Source of the DNA: Tetracentron sinense
Lineage: Eukaryota > Streptophyta > Magnoliopsida > Trochodendrales > Trochodendraceae
Assembly: GCA_015143295.1 (NCBI GenBank)
Contig: CM026573.1
Coordinates: 6,436,434-6,500,433 of the forward strand
Length of the DNA stretch: 64,000 nt
Direction: 5' to 3'
Part shown: piece by piece, positions 23,414 through 41,640 of the stretch
Layout of the letters: the number at the start of each line of letters is the position of its first letter
How positions within the stretch are numbered: the stretch's first letter is position 1
Notes under the pieces: model-generated
What the model saw: the letters and a program-made list of their open reading frames with translations, nothing else
Database searches by the model: none
Told to the model about the DNA's origin: nothing
Position numbers and translations under genes: made by a program

Positions 23414-23418
23414 GAAAG

Positions 23419-24186
23419 TGTAATGGGTAAATTTCGTAAAACCCCAAGTATGGTAGTAACGAGCTTGTCCTCGGTGTGGTGTTATCGTTTGAGCTCATTT
23501 CCGTTGTCTCTTCGACAACGGGCCCGTTGTCATATAGACAACGAGAACGTTGTCCACCAAACAACGACCCTGTTATCTCATAGACAACGATTACGTCTTC
23601 ATTCTGACAACGTACTCGTTGTCTTATTGTCAACGACCCCGTACCCCAACACGTAATGAGATCCGGTGCTATTGCCCAGTCGCCTGGGACTGATCCTACC
23701 TCTACGATGGTAGGTGGGAAACACTGTCTTGGCATTAAATATAGCATTAAATGCCATTTAATGCTAGTCACCTCGGACGAGTTCCTACTCTATGCCTGCT
23801 CTCTTTTATATGCAGATGCGCGTGCAGTACGAATGACCGGGAGATCTATCTAAAATGATTATTGAAGTACACATCAGAGATTTGAGGTGTGCATGGTCAT
23901 CCATGGGTGCCTATGGCCATGGCGGGAGGGGCCTATAAGAACCTGTGAAAAACAGTGTGAAGCGACGGATTTTTTGAAGAGCTAAGACCCTCAAACTCTC
24001 TGCATTTTTTTTTACTGTTCATCATCTTCTCCACATACTGACTTTGGCATCGGAGTACAGGTCGGAGTGCACACCCTCCTCATCGCCTTGATCAACTGGC
24101 GGGGTCTTACTATTGTCTTTCAGCCTCACGACCGCAACTTGAGTTAACTTCTAATACGTGTAATCATCGGTAAAAATTCCCTCACA
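23419..24186 (+). repeat. 5' LTR of the gypsy element
   Basis: 768 bp, begins TGTAATGGG and ends CCCTCACA. It carries the palindrome array at 23502-23635 in the presumed U3 and a TATA-like CCTATAAGAACC near 23930. It matches the 3' LTR almost base for base. Confidence 0.93.
23502..23635 (+). promoter_or_regulatory. Six-unit palindrome array in the 5' LTR, 23-bp period
   Basis: Six consecutive 19-bp dyads of the form CGTTGTC-N5-GACAACG begin at 23502, 23525, 23548, 23571, 23594 and 23617, each separated by 4 bases. The arms are conserved (units 1 and 2 perfect, the others with one to three changes). The 5-bp loops and 4-bp linkers all differ. The array lies about 300-430 bp upstream of the TATA-like site, in presumed U3. 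The arm contains CGTTG, which fits the R2R3-MYB core CNGTTR. This looks like a set of dyad protein-binding sites. Confidence 0.8.
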
Positions 24187-24189
24187 AAA

Positions 24190-24909
24190 TTGGCGCCGTC
24201 TGTGGGAAATTTTAGCCGAACCCACCCTTTGCTCACACCACCTCTCCCGGTCAGCATGACAGACCAAACTCCTCAGTCTATCGTCGAAAACCAGCCCCCT
24301 CAAGCCATTTCCTGCACCCCTTCCGCCATGCAAACGTTCGCATCAGGCCAATCATCTGGACAACCAGAAAGGCTCATGACCATACCTGATCTCATCCTGT
24401 TACTATTACAACAACAACAGGCCACTCAGGCCCAGATAGTCAGCCAACAGCAGTCACTGCAGGAGCGGCTTGATGCTTTAGAGCATAGTAACTTGGAGAT
24501 CGATGACGAATCTCCTAAAGGGGGCTCTGTGACTCGTAAACTCAATTTCCCTTCTTCCCCTCCCCCCAAAGTAACAATCCCGATTTCGCCGTCTGCAACA
24601 GAGAATCTGGAGAGAAGATTCACTCTCACTTCTTCTACTGACGAGACTGCCTATCCTCGTTCTCTTGGTGCTCATGCTGAACAACGAGATCTCCGTGTCA
24701 GCAACGACGGGTTGAAGACAGGCTTAACCCTCAAGGACGTGGAAGCCCTGATCAATGCTCGAGTCAGAGGAGTGACGAGCGGGGCCTCTCTCGATCAATA
24801 CGCTCAGAAGAACAAAGACGAGGAGGAGACGTCCCCTTTTTCCAAGGAGATCGTCGAATCATATACCCCTCCATTGAACTGCAAACACAACGCACGGTGT
24901 TATTCGTAA
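24190..24909 (+). mobile_element. Gag-like N-terminal region of the gypsy element
   Basis: An open stretch begins soon after the primer-binding site, rich in Pro, Gln and Ser with a Gln-rich helix-like segment. This is typical of the start of Tat-lineage gag, which lacks sharp motifs here. Assignment is by position. Confidence 0.55.
24191..24208 (+). other. Primer-binding site of the gypsy element
   Basis: TGGCGCCGTCTGTGGGAA begins four bases after the 5' LTR, the place for the tRNA primer. This sequence is common in plant Ty3/gypsy elements; I do not assign the tRNA. Confidence 0.75.
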
Positions 24910-26740: not shown

Positions 26741-29155
26741 TCAATCTTCGTCAACTTCAACAACTACGACAGAGTCATCGGGAACGATCGGAACGTTGTC
26801 AGCAGTAACAGCGGTATCGGCGGAAGCAGTTTCAGCTGGAGCCTCGGGGAGAACGGGAGATGGTCCAATAGGTAACGGGGGTTGCCCCCCTCCTTGTACC
26901 TCGAGCTCTTCACCGAGCGGGAACTCCATGCCCACAGCCTCAGAACGAGTGGCCTCGTCCTTCGATTGCTGGGGAGACTCTACCAGTCGTCCCGATTCTC
27001 GGAGCTCGTTCATCAGCTCCCTCTCCGTCTCGACCCGATCTTCGGCTATCAGCCGTTCCATCTCTGTCTGGAAGTGGGCTCGAAGAGACTCCGTTAAAGC
27101 CTCCTTGGCGGCTTCAACCTCCTTGTCCCTCATGGCCGCGGCCTCCTCAAGCTGTTTGGCCAACGCTGCCTTCTCGGCCTCAGTCGCCTCTAGCAGTTGA
27201 TGGAGAGTGTTCACGATCTCGTCCATCTCGCTGATCCGAAGGACGGATCTCTCGGCCTGTTCCACCGCCGCCTTCTCTCCCTCCACCGCCTTACGGGCTT
27301 CGTCCCGAGCTTTGTCCCGTTGTTTCACGACCGTGGCAATCGTGCCTTTAGCAGCCCGCAGGTCAGCTCTAACGGACATCAACTCGTGGTTCAGCCGTTT
27401 CACGTCCTCGGCCCCCCTCTTCTCCAGGTCGATGATTTTGTCCCTCAGCGCATTGGCATTACGCCTGTTTTCGGTGGTGATTTCGTACATCCCGGCGAGC
27501 ATGTTGCCCAGCTAAAAAAAAAGGGGGGGGGGGAAGAGAGAGAGATGCTATAAAAAAAAAACGTACCGTGGCAACAGCTCGACTCGCGGCACTGAATATC
27601 CCCATCCAGTGCATGTCTCTCGTTGTGGCTATATCCGCTGGGAGTCTCATCGCCAACATCATCGATGTGGCAACGGAGTCGTGTTCCATCGCCGAATGTA
27701 CGACGGTAGGACGAGCATATCCTCGGGGGAAGACGGGATTCCATAGCTCGGCGGGGCCCCCCATGGTAATCCTCTCTCGAGGAGGGGCAGGAAATGGAGG
27801 AACAGAAGACGGGGAAGCGGAAGATGAAGCCACGTTTGCGGCTAGTGAGGAAGTAGAGGCCGGGACAACCACATGGGCAGTAAAGTTGGGAGGAGCAATA
27901 ACAGCCGTATCTGCCACAGTAGACGGAGCAGCTACGATAGCCACGGGAGGGCCGGTGCTAACAATTGGAGGCTCCTCCGCGGGGATACCACTTCCCTCGC
28001 CGAATGTTGCAGCTTGAGTAGGAAACACCTCGGCGGACTCCCGTTCTTGAACCCTCTGGTCGTGCTCCGCCTCTCGCCAAGCTTTTTTTGCCTTCAGGGC
28101 TTTGAGAGCTTCTTCCCTCTCTCTTTTCTCCGTCTTCTTATCCGCCGCGGAGAGACGGGAGGGACGAGAAGGGCGGGGAGGACGAGTCAGCATCGGAGCC
28201 TGTGAGGATCGCTGTGATAAGGTATGTTGGTCAGCCATGTCTTCCTCTATCTCCTCGTCAAGGAAAGCTATCGGCCCGAGCGGTCTCTGAGGCGGTGGAT
28301 GAGCTGGTCGGCATGGCTTTCTAGGTAAGGTCCCTGCCTCTACAGCGGACCCTGTCTCTTGAGCAGAGGACGGCGTCCAGGTGACGTAATCGTCCCCTTT
28401 ATCGATGCGAACTTTCCGAAGCGCGTACTCTTCTTCCGCGGAAAGTTCAGAGAAACGTGGCTTAGAAATCTCTGCAGAAAGAGCGAAACGTTATTAGCCA
28501 TGTAATAGGAATACGTTTTCAGAACAGACAACGGAAAACGATTCAAAAGTAACAGACCTGAAGTAAATTCGTGGGGAACAGGACGGGCAGTCTCTGCCCT
28601 CCAAGCTCCGGAGACCACGAAAGGCATCTCCTTCCAGTCCCGTTCCACATCAGGGAGGTGTGTGATGATATCGGGGATCCTGGGTTTTTGACTCCAGGTG
28701 AAGTACGTTTTCTTTCCCTCCTCATCAGCCCCCCGACATTTCACGACATGGCTGAAGTGGAAGACGTGCCTGACCTCTATGTTGTACCCGTCTCTGTTGA
28801 ACTTGTCCATCAGAGACATGTATTTGTAGAACTTCGGGTGCATTTGCCCCGGGGCAATTTGAAGGACGGACAGGACGAAGTCCGCAATGAGAGATAAGGG
28901 AAATCGAAGTCCAGTCTCGAACTGGGCGAGGTAGACGATAGTGCAGGAAGAACGGTGGTCTGGAAGAACGTCTTCTTCCTTAAAATGAATGTGGACATGA
29001 GGGGGAATTTGGTAAAAGGCTCTTTAATGGTCAAGAGCGTATTTGACAACTGTTTTGGTTTTGGGTTTAGAAACGCTGGTAATAATACCGTGAGGGGCAC
29101 TGCCTGAACAACTGGCTTCATCGGCACTATCTATTCTAACAACTTCGGCAGACAT
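26741..29155 (-). mobile_element. Antisense gene region of the Tat-like element
   Basis: Lying between integrase and the 3' LTR on the minus strand. Several open stretches occur. Near 28840-28340 a block resembles the 'putative gypsy type transposon' family (PF04195-like; FYKYMSLMDKF, HVFHFSHVV). Near 27500-26741 there is a long Glu/Ala/Lys/Arg-rich coiled-coil. A start in strong context (CCACCATG) lies at 29155. Members of this lineage are known to carry such an antisense ORF of unsettled function, in some cases with introns. The region is a fossil part and its coding state is not resolved here. Confidence 0.6.
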
Positions 29156-29405: not shown

Positions 29406-29415
29406 TATTTATAGA
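29406..29415 (-). promoter_or_regulatory. Antisense TATA box for the minus-strand gene of the gypsy element
   Basis: On the minus strand TCTATAAATA lies about 250 bases upstream of the CCACCATG start at 29155. It is a good TATA consensus for a separate antisense promoter between the antisense ORF and the 3' LTR. Confidence 0.5.
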
Positions 29416-29746: not shown

Positions 29747-30514
29747 TGTAATGGGTAAATTTCGTAAAACTCCAAGTATGGTAGTAACGAGCTTGTCCTC
29801 GGTGTGGTGTTATCGTTTGAGCTCATTTCCGTTGTCTCTTCGACAACGGGCCCGTTGTCATATAGACAACGAGAACGTTGTCCACCGAACAACGACCCCG
29901 TTATCTCATAGACAACGATCACGTCTTCATTCTGACAACGTACTCGTTGTCTTATTGTCAACGACCCCGTACCCCAACACGTAATGAGATCCCGTGCTAT
30001 TGCCCAGTCGCCTGGGACTGATCCTACCTCTACGATGGTAGGTGGGAAACACTGTCTTGGCATTAAATATAGCATTAAATGTCATTTAATGCTAGTCACA
30101 TCGGACGAGTTCCTACTCTATGCCTGCTCTCTTTTATATGCAGATGCGCGTGCAGTACGAATGACCGGGAGATCTATCTAAAATGATTATTGAAGTACAC
30201 ATCAGAGATTTGAGATGTGCATGGTCATCCATGGGTGCCTATGGCCATGGCGGGAGGGGCCTATAAGAACCTGTGAAAAACAGTGTGAAGCGACAGATTT
30301 TTTGAAGAGCTAAGACCCTCAAACTCTCTGCATTTTTTTTTACTGTTCATCATCTTCTCCACATACTGACTTTGGCATCGGAGTACAGGTCGGAGTGCAC
30401 ACCCTCCTCGTCGCCTTGATCAACTGGCGGGGTCTTACTATTGTCTTTCAGCCTCACGACCGCAACTTGAGTTAACTTCTAATACGTGTAATCATCGGTA
30501 AAAATTCTCTCAGA
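29747..30514 (+). repeat. 3' LTR of the gypsy element
   Basis: 768 bp, same length as the 5' LTR, beginning TGTAATGGG. It is followed by the target duplication GAAAG at 30515-30519. It carries the same six-palindrome array at 29830-29963. Confidence 0.93.
29830..29963 (+). promoter_or_regulatory. Six-unit palindrome array in the 3' LTR
   Basis: Counterpart of the array at 23502. Unit 4 here has CGTTATC where the 5' copy has TGTTATC, so this copy is one step nearer the consensus arm. The array would also be present as six hairpins in the 3' end of the element's RNA. Confidence 0.75.
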
Positions 30515-30519
30515 GAAAG

Positions 30520-37639: not shown

Positions 37640-38173
37640 TTAAAATGGGAGAGGAGGCGTAGCCTGAATTTTCCAAAATTCCTAAACTACTCTTATATAA
37701 AACCAATCTTTAATTTAATGTTTTACTTTAATTCCCAAACTACCCTCATCTATCTATTTATAGAATAGAATCATAGTCAATCGTGATTGAACTCGGGGAG
37801 AGTTCAATCGCACCCGCGGGTTAACACCTGTCCCTTTTAACTCCTACTAACTGTGGTTAACTCCTTCCCATCACTCTCACGTGCATCGCATTTGCCACCA
37901 GCTAGTTATTATAATGCGAGAAGCAGGCATAATTTGATTTTTCCAAAATTCCCAAACTACCCTTACATAAAACAAAACTTTTATTTAATGTTTTACTTTA
38001 ATTCCCAAACTACCCCTTGCTCATCTATCTATTTAAATAATAGAATCTCGTGATTGACCTCGGGGAGAGTTCAATCACACCTGTGGGTTAACACATGTCC
38101 CTTTTAACTCCTATTAACTGTGGTTAACTCCTTCCCCTCGCTGTCACGTGCATCGCACTTGCCACCTGCTAGT
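37640..38173. repeat. Two Helitron-like tandem subunits
   Basis: Two units of about 265 bp each begin near TACTATTAAAATGGGAGAGG or TATTATAATGCGAGAAGCAG and end CACGTGCATCGCA(C/T)TTGCCACC(T/A)GCTAGT. The end has a short GTGC-ATC-GCAC hairpin about 11 bases before CTAG followed by T, as Helitrons have. Inside are pieces of the 13455-type MITE arm (AACTCGGGGAGAGTTCAATC). Confidence 0.45.
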
Positions 38174-38481
38174 TATAATAAGTAGAGAAGATAAAGGTAA
38201 TTTTATCAAACAATTCAACTAAGGTTTTGTTTTTAAGGGCCATATTTTCATTTCAATAAAGATAAAATGATATTTACCAATAAATTTATTTTTGTAATTT
38301 TGATAATAAAGCCATCATCATTAAAAAAAAAAAAGAAATCAAATAATAAAGCCCCATTTCAAAGTTCATCAAAGGTTCAAAGTAAGAAACATCCCCACCT
38401 CTTGCCCCAATGGTGGGGTGTGACTTCTCTTTTGAGACTTGAGAGAGCTCTTGATAAGTCTACGAGAGCTCAAGTTGCAAG

Positions 38482-40744: not shown

Positions 40745-41322
40745 GTTCGTATAAGTTGTATTTGTGAAATTTCCTTTTCCTTCATATTAATATGCTAAAA
40801 GGCGATACATATTGTATTGATATGCATGTTATAGATCAATATTTTACATCTTGGTCTCAATTATTCCGCGCAGATGATCGTGGGAAATTTCATGGGAATT
40901 TCAAATGTGTAGAGGTTCTCGTCTTATGAAAACCATTCAAAATTAACAAGTCACTCTGGAAAAAATTATTCAGATAACTAATCATGTGGCAATCATTCAA
41001 CATATTTGACCACACCAGCCAAACAAAATATATAGTTTCTGACAACAACAATAAAAGAAGATGTCTTCCACCATTGTCAAATGTAGGACCATCTTCAGTA
41101 TTTTTTTTTGTTGACCACTAACCATCTTCACAGTCTTATGATGATGATTTCGTAATCTCATCCGATTCTAACTTGATTTGTCTTATTGCAACATTTGCTT
41201 CACAATGAAGTGCTAAGACCACATTGGTAAACACTCATGGTCTATTCCCCAATCAAGCTTGGTTGACAAGCTTATTGGCCATAATGCAATTCATTTTAGG
41301 AGTCCATTCATCTTGATACAGT

Positions 41323-41640
41323 CCTGTTATTTCATAATTATAAATTCAAGTATTCAACTGATAACATATTTTATCAGACGTTATATATGTATTTATATTC
41401 ATTCCTGCTATTTCGTAATTATAAAGTCAAGTATTCAACTGATAACATATTTTATCAGACGTTATATATGTATTTATATTCATTCCTGCTATTTCGTAAT
41501 TATAAAGTCAAGTATTCAACTGATAACATATTTTATCAGACGTTATATATGTATTTATATTCATTCCTGCTATTTCGTAATTATAAAGTCAAGTATTCAA
41601 CTGATAACATATTTTATCAGACGTTATATATGTTTTTATG
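41323..41640 (+). repeat. 81-bp tandem repeat, about four units
   Basis: Units begin at 41323, 41404, 41485 and 41566 (CCTGCTATTTCGTAATTATA ...). Units 2-4 are almost identical and unit 1 is slightly diverged. Because 81 is divisible by 3 and the unit has no stop in two frames, repeating open frames run through it; they carry no known domain. Confidence 0.92.

Follow-up and report, generated by a model that had tools for sequence, protein, structure and literature searches.

A 23-bp phased dyad array in the long terminal repeats of a Retand-type gypsy element of Tetracentron sinense accompanies an antisense TRP28 gene and may be its target

A dyad array in both long terminal repeats of a gypsy element

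The window analysed here, a 64,000-nucleotide stretch of the Tetracentron sinense genome, contains a gypsy-type retrotransposon of ~7.1 kb whose two long terminal repeats (LTRs) each carry six CGTTGTC-N5-GACAACG dyads. An antisense open stretch with a TRP28-like domain lies beside the 3' LTR array. Across the genome, this array and the antisense TRP28 (PF04195) gene of Retand-type elements are found together, whichever of the two is used to start the search, and the array may be the target of the encoded protein.

The LTRs differ at 12 positions with no gaps over 768 versus 768 bp, and the pair is bracketed by GAAAG on both sides (Table 1). The integrase remains match the zinc-binding domain PF17921 with an E value of 4.3e-11; the match to the core domain PF00665 (E 4.9e-6, 27.2 bits) is below the curated cut-off of 32.6. 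Only ~0.9 kb separates the 5' LTR from the integrase, too short for gag, protease and reverse transcriptase, and the window copy is therefore a deletion derivative. From the last integrase-frame open reading frame (26117) to the 3' LTR (29747) there is ~3.6 kb, and coding potential between 26.1 and 29.7 kb of the window is antisense. Passages of a survey of recently active Retand elements give 2.9-6.6 kb for the region between pol and the 3' LTR (PMC11963269), a range that includes the window element. The LTR pair, the target-site duplication and the gypsy-type integrase domains are likewise those of a Retand/Tat-type element. In that survey, the Retand lineage is recognised by a TRP28 gene that lies antisense between pol and the 3' LTR; the element, unnamed in an earlier note on this DNA, is therefore assigned from its sequence features to Retand/Tat-type gypsy with an antisense TRP28 gene.

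The 227-aa antisense stretch matched PF04195-found proteins of the same genome with a best blastp E value of 2e-61. The window copy itself was below detection in the Pfam search; PF04195 was matched by seven of the eight aligned members, including L063, which is 95% identical to the window copy. The 256-aa antisense stretch further downstream had no significant match in Pfam (best E 0.052). Judged by eye, it may resemble a coiled coil and could be a dimerisation region.

Table 1. Features of the element and its dyad arrays (window positions)
Feature	Position	Strand	Remarks
Target-site duplication GAAAG, left copy	23414..23418
5' LTR	23419..24186	+	768 bp, TG...CA
Dyad array, six CGTTGTC-N5-GACAACG units, 5' LTR	23502..23635		23-bp period
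TATA-like TATAAG, candidate sense LTR promoter	23934..23939	+	~300 bp downstream of array; 3' LTR copy at 30262; putative promoter role
Probable primer-binding region, directly 3' of 5' LTR	24187..24210	+	read from sequence; no tRNA match assigned
Integrase remains in two frames, zinc-binding PF17921 and core PF00665	24681..25814	+	Pfam
Second antisense open stretch, downstream of TRP28-like stretch	26741..27511	-	256 aa
Antisense open stretch, TRP28-like domain	28340..29023	-	227 aa; blastp to PF04195-found proteins of genome
TATA-like TATAAATA, candidate antisense promoter	29406..29413	-	~420 bp from 3' LTR array, ahead of antisense gene; putative promoter role
3' LTR	29747..30514	+	768 bp
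Dyad array, six units, 3' LTR, upstream of antisense gene	29830..29963
Target-site duplication GAAAG, right copy	30515..30519

The array begins 83 bp inside the LTR. The earlier note had described six dyads at exact 23-bp steps in both LTRs, and all 12 starts were recovered as described. Left and right half-sites follow each other at 11 or 12 bp, close to one turn of the helix. Allowing at most three mismatches, the window holds 12 dyads; 100 shuffles gave a mean of 1.07 and a largest count of 5, and none of the 100 reached 12. A motif-blind search for dyad arrays found its optimum in the window at loop 5 and period 23. The best four-unit score is 47/48 inside the arrays and 27/48 in the remaining window. 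The arms had been described as conserved and the loops and linkers as differing. This is so for the window array as a whole, but all 14 arm bases are perfect only in units 1 and 2; units 3 and 6 have one mismatch, unit 5 has two, and unit 4 has two in the 5' LTR and one in the 3' LTR. That spacing and arms hold while loops and linkers differ argues against a neutral LTR minisatellite, homogenised by unequal exchange and functionless, as the origin of the array.

The dyads keep one geometry across the genome

In the 1.16-Gb Tetracentron sinense genome, exact CGTTGTC-N5-GACAACG occurs 1841 times, versus 22 for the reversed control. When loops of 0-21 were allowed, 1841 (97%) of 1899 CGTTGTC...GACAACG pairs had loop 5, whereas a drifting satellite would show insertions and deletions; only the loop-5 share of this search is used and not the total, the reversed control itself (CTGTTGC-N0-21-GCAACAG) occurring 1429 times. 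The outward pair GACAACG-N0-21-CGTTGTC, which spans the linker, was found 2651 times versus 105 for its control, and among the 50 matches listed the linker is 4 bp in 44 and 1 bp in 6. A sister form of the outward pair, GACGACG-N0-21-CGTSGTC, gave 1328 and 1542 occurrences on the two strands versus 99 and 112 for the controls, with a 4-bp linker in all but three among the matches listed. These loop and linker lengths, together with the way the array follows the TRP28 gene (below), support the earlier view that the dyads represent retained DNA binding sites and not a decayed satellite; on such sequence evidence they are probably protein sites.

Two further observations were made in these searches. 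The count of the reversed control suggests that the genome may contain a further abundant inverted repeat. Among the outward-pair matches listed, 1-bp linkers replace 4-bp linkers at six places on contig C1, for example C1:7019074 and C1:10115748.

The array accompanies TRP28 genes

TRP28 genes were taken as Pfam hits at E ≤0.001 from the 150 scored of 1515 candidates (n=23), and their upstream flanks were scored for a 23-bp array out of 48; none of 1000 shuffles scored above 29. Nineteen of the 23 hits have an upstream array scoring 36-47, mostly ~0.9-1.5 kb upstream of TRP28 (~2.4 kb at L053). On contig C1, an exact dyad among the matches listed lies 0.70-0.94 kb upstream of eight of the nine TRP28 hits that could be assessed (12 in total, three of them outside the range of the dyads listed). 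The reverse direction gave the same picture: four LTR pairs, 10 to 12.4 kb apart, were hand-picked from the C1 dyads listed, outside the TRP28 hits listed, and in all four a TRP28 gene lies just inside one LTR, reading away from it, with none inside the other. Together, the shuffles, the reversed patterns and the scan of TRP28 flanks lead us to reject a chance origin of the array.

The array was found in none of 16 flanks of other LTR elements (eight copia and eight chromovirus; maximum score 26), and TRP28 was also in none of them. These control stretches were set by position downstream of RVT_2 or chromodomain matches, not by LTR detection, and two of them (L212 and L213) gave identical results and are probably copies of one family. 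In at least 120 viral contigs, each chosen for a dyad-linker match, the array score reached at most 28. Neither the two-dyad pattern nor the TRP28 profile had a match in the viral contigs searched, and the TRP28 profile had none in the prokaryote genomes searched.

These controls bear on two other readings of the array. It could serve another element protein or a DNA step such as the integration complex, insulation, a chromatin boundary or replication, and not TRP28 regulation. Being in both LTRs, the array is indeed in the DNA ends handled by integrase; however, it starts well inside the LTR, away from the ends that integrase processes, and it is absent from the 16 other LTR-element flanks although integrase is present there too. 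We regard this reading as improbable. Alternatively, the dyads could be sites for a transcription factor or insulator protein of the host (MYB, NAC, bZIP or another), bound in a Su(Hw)-like manner, with the antisense gene an unrelated passenger of the lineage. Plant LTRs often use host factors, and the units have a polarity, with T-rich loops and C-rich linker ends, that host sites might show. That the array follows TRP28 and is not seen in the 16 flanks of other lineages speaks against a host factor, as do the sister copies described below.

Some individual loci deserve mention. L040 carries six dyads with at most two mismatches at 2811-2966, in steps of 23 and 34 bp; the 34-bp step exceeds 23 by 11, the length of one half-site step, as though an extra half-site were present. 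The longest array found, at L045, has 11 register positions and a recurring linker TTCC. L035/L058 and L042/L059 are TRP28 hits without an array within ~3 kb upstream and are possible exceptions or rearranged copies.

Sister copies change the arms and keep the frame

Eight sister copies (L070-L077), whose antisense proteins are 81-88% identical to that of the window, have 6 to 10 units each, and the 23-bp frame is retained in every one. Most of their units have shifted to GACGACG arms: position 4 of the right arm is G in 53 of 65 units and A in 11, and position 4 of the left arm is C or G in 49 and T in 16. Either a changing element-encoded protein or homogenisation by exchange would be expected to alter most units alike while preserving the frame. 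Near-identical 46-bp two-unit blocks in the sister copies indicate that arrays grow by duplication and that exchange does occur. The earlier contention that the array is not a plain tandem duplication thus agrees with the differing loops and linkers of the window but not with these blocks, which, like the variable unit number, would also suit a minisatellite.

A fixed host factor would lose binding when most units of eight sister copies change their arms in the same direction. CGTTG, described earlier as a MYB-like core, is gone from most sister units together with CAACG while the array persists, and this weakens the MYB reading. In light of this and of the association with TRP28, we consider a host factor unlikely, though far from negligible.

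We also weighed a hairpin ladder in the genomic RNA, at its 3' end, that would act in packaging or export or as silencing bait. Folding of the array stretch is much stronger than that of shuffles (z -6.9), which is unavoidable for an array of palindromes. Compensated arm changes, however, are not above chance (14 versus 11.6 expected in superfamily A, 2 versus 3.1 in the sister copies), and each of the five arm deviations found in the window 3' LTR affects one side only. The minimum-energy fold forms no ladder either; only the first dyad makes its own hairpin. DNA sites are therefore more likely than RNA stems, and the hairpin ladder is very improbable. Superfamily A is represented by 92 units from 19 loci pre-selected for at least 9 of 12 core matches, with L040 and L047 left out, which inflates its arm conservation; the 65 sister units and the six window units were unfiltered by score.

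In the sister arrays L070-L077, the arms CGTCGTC/GACGACG are CpG-rich, and the 46-bp blocks suggest growth by two units at a time.

Constancy between and within families

The superfamily A and window arrays both keep CGTTGT-N7-ACAACG at 23 bp despite a TRP28 synonymous divergence (dS) near 2, a persistence that a functionless minisatellite would not be expected to show. Over the TRP28 stretch, the ratio of nonsynonymous to synonymous rates (dN/dS) between the window and superfamily A is 0.09-0.10 in the three of seven comparisons where dS (~2) was computable; the stretch is under purifying selection.

The window family was sampled as 30 LTR copies from the 40 scored of 2173 candidates, the two LTRs of the window included. 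The array is ungapped in all 30, in keeping with the earlier expectation that unit spacing would be retained in other copies. Non-CpG substitutions amount to 10/1770 (0.0056) in arms, 6/810 (0.0074) in loops, 11/600 (0.0183) in linkers and 193/17419 (0.0111) in the LTR remainder. Substitution is thus slower in arms than in linkers (Fisher P=0.009) or in the flank (P=0.037). Arm constancy is visible between units and between families rather than within the window family; since most genomic copies are probably dead, the within-family rate test has little power to detect selection on source copies. Ten family copies of the antisense stretch gave ratios of nonsynonymous to synonymous differences (pN/pS) of 0.42 and 0.41 in its two halves.

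A model for the array

Three routes had been put forward for the dyads, namely MYB sites, sites for an element-encoded antisense product and RNA hairpins; with the first weakened by the arm change and the third by the uncompensated arms, the antisense product fits best. We propose that in Retand/Tat-type gypsy elements the array acts in cis as a regulatory ladder of binding sites, bound by dimers of the antisense TRP28 protein and controlling both flanking promoters, and put the chance of this at about one half. The antisense gene beside the 3' LTR would encode a nuclear TRP28 protein, dimers of which would occupy the dyads side by side. The bound ladder would then control the sense LTR promoter on one side and the antisense promoter on the other. 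By analogy with the VANC proteins discussed below, activation or anti-silencing seems somewhat more likely than autorepression. The survey of Retand elements describes TRP28, in the passages concerned, as a domain of unknown function that is probably DNA-binding (PMC11963269). Passages of a review (PMC7264820) state that the functions of antisense open reading frames in plant LTR retrotransposons are unknown and report that, in maize Grande, transcription of the antisense gene starts from a separate promoter upstream of it.

Several observations weigh against this proposal. A host factor would yield the same cis pattern. Alignable flank DNA is shared among the 19 array loci and, to a lesser extent, between them and the window LTR (at most 328 aligned bases), so common descent explains much of the co-occurrence of array and TRP28; L040 and L047 share no notable flank DNA with the array loci. 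These two reach only 32 and 30 at the 23-bp step and score higher at another step length, and two of the 23 TRP28 hits have no array within ~3 kb upstream. A search of the PDB with TRP28 returned no solved relative. Between the window and one sister protein, which differ at 42 of 227 positions, the TRP28 half has a dN/dS of 0.43 and the second half one of 0.87, indicating weak recent constraint, weaker than between the older families. Finally, among the 30 family LTRs the arms are no slower than the loops (P=0.60), and arm CpG sites are no slower than flank CpG sites (P=1.0). The earlier expectation that arms evolve more slowly than spacers was thus borne out against linkers but not against loops. 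Arms no slower than loops and arm CpG decay like that of the flank are also what a minisatellite predicts; given the geometry held genome-wide and between families, we attach only a small probability to that explanation.

In a broader formulation, this plant LTR retrotransposon lineage would possess its own sequence-specific circuit, in which TRP28 reads phased dyads in the LTRs and protein and sites change together between families, as an LTR counterpart of VANC anti-silencing in a different element class. We advance this tentatively, as a possibility that falls somewhat short of an even chance.

Relation to known systems

Several known systems resemble parts of this arrangement. The U3 region of human T-cell leukaemia virus type 1 (HTLV-1) has 21-bp repeats serving Tax, and its antisense gene HBZ is expressed from the 3' LTR. 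It thus shares U3 repeats spaced by about two turns for an element-encoded regulator and an antisense gene with its promoter at the 3' end; unlike here, there are three imperfect cyclic AMP response element repeats, bound via host CREB, and no shared descent is claimed. The Su(Hw) insulator of Drosophila gypsy is likewise an array of protein sites in an LTR retrotransposon, but its sites are direct, its protein is a host zinc-finger protein, and it lies in the 5' untranslated region rather than the LTR. In En/Spm, the element-encoded TnpA binds direct and inverted short repeats (12-bp subterminal motifs) in its own element; En/Spm is a DNA transposon with irregularly spaced sites at the transposon ends.

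The closest functional parallel, by analogy, is VANDAL/VANC. VANC proteins are anti-silencing proteins of Arabidopsis VANDAL elements (PMC5735166, PMC10398659), and passages of PMC5735166 place their targets in tandem repeats whose units diverge in concert. Both systems would combine an element-encoded plant protein, here TRP28 with predicted binding, and short motifs clustered in the non-coding DNA of the element. Both have tandem-repeat targets that change in copy number and units that diverge together between relatives, here in all eight sister copies. Unlike VANDAL, a Mu-like DNA transposon, the present element is an LTR element, and its antisense protein carries PF04195. The VANC21 motif YAGTATTAY is, in those passages, arrayed in one orientation, whereas the units here are dyads, and VANC binding and demethylation have been demonstrated, whereas TRP28 binding is predicted from sequence.

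Retand elements, as portrayed in passages of PMC11963269 and PMC7264820, have the antisense TRP28 between pol and the 3' LTR and the long pol-3' LTR region seen in the host element of the array. The passages of PMC11963269 make no mention of an LTR dyad array, and 'palindrom' occurs in that paper only in the reference list. Nor was such an array reported in the titles or abstract openings that literature searches listed, the depth at which most papers were judged. An element-encoded regulator with repeated targets is already known from DNA transposons; an LTR-retrotransposon version, dyad-phased and tied to antisense TRP28, would be new. A defined, phased target following TRP28 turns an open question of function into a testable question of binding. 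If that binding is true, plant LTR elements would possess target-specific regulators of their own, and the families with changed arms could serve as natural specificity mutants for studying the conflict between host and element over LTR silencing.

Other repeats in the window

Two tandem repeats lie elsewhere in the window: a 267-bp duplication at 37665-38181 (1.9 copies, 86% matches) and an 81-bp repeat at 41322-41639 (3.9 copies, 98% matches).
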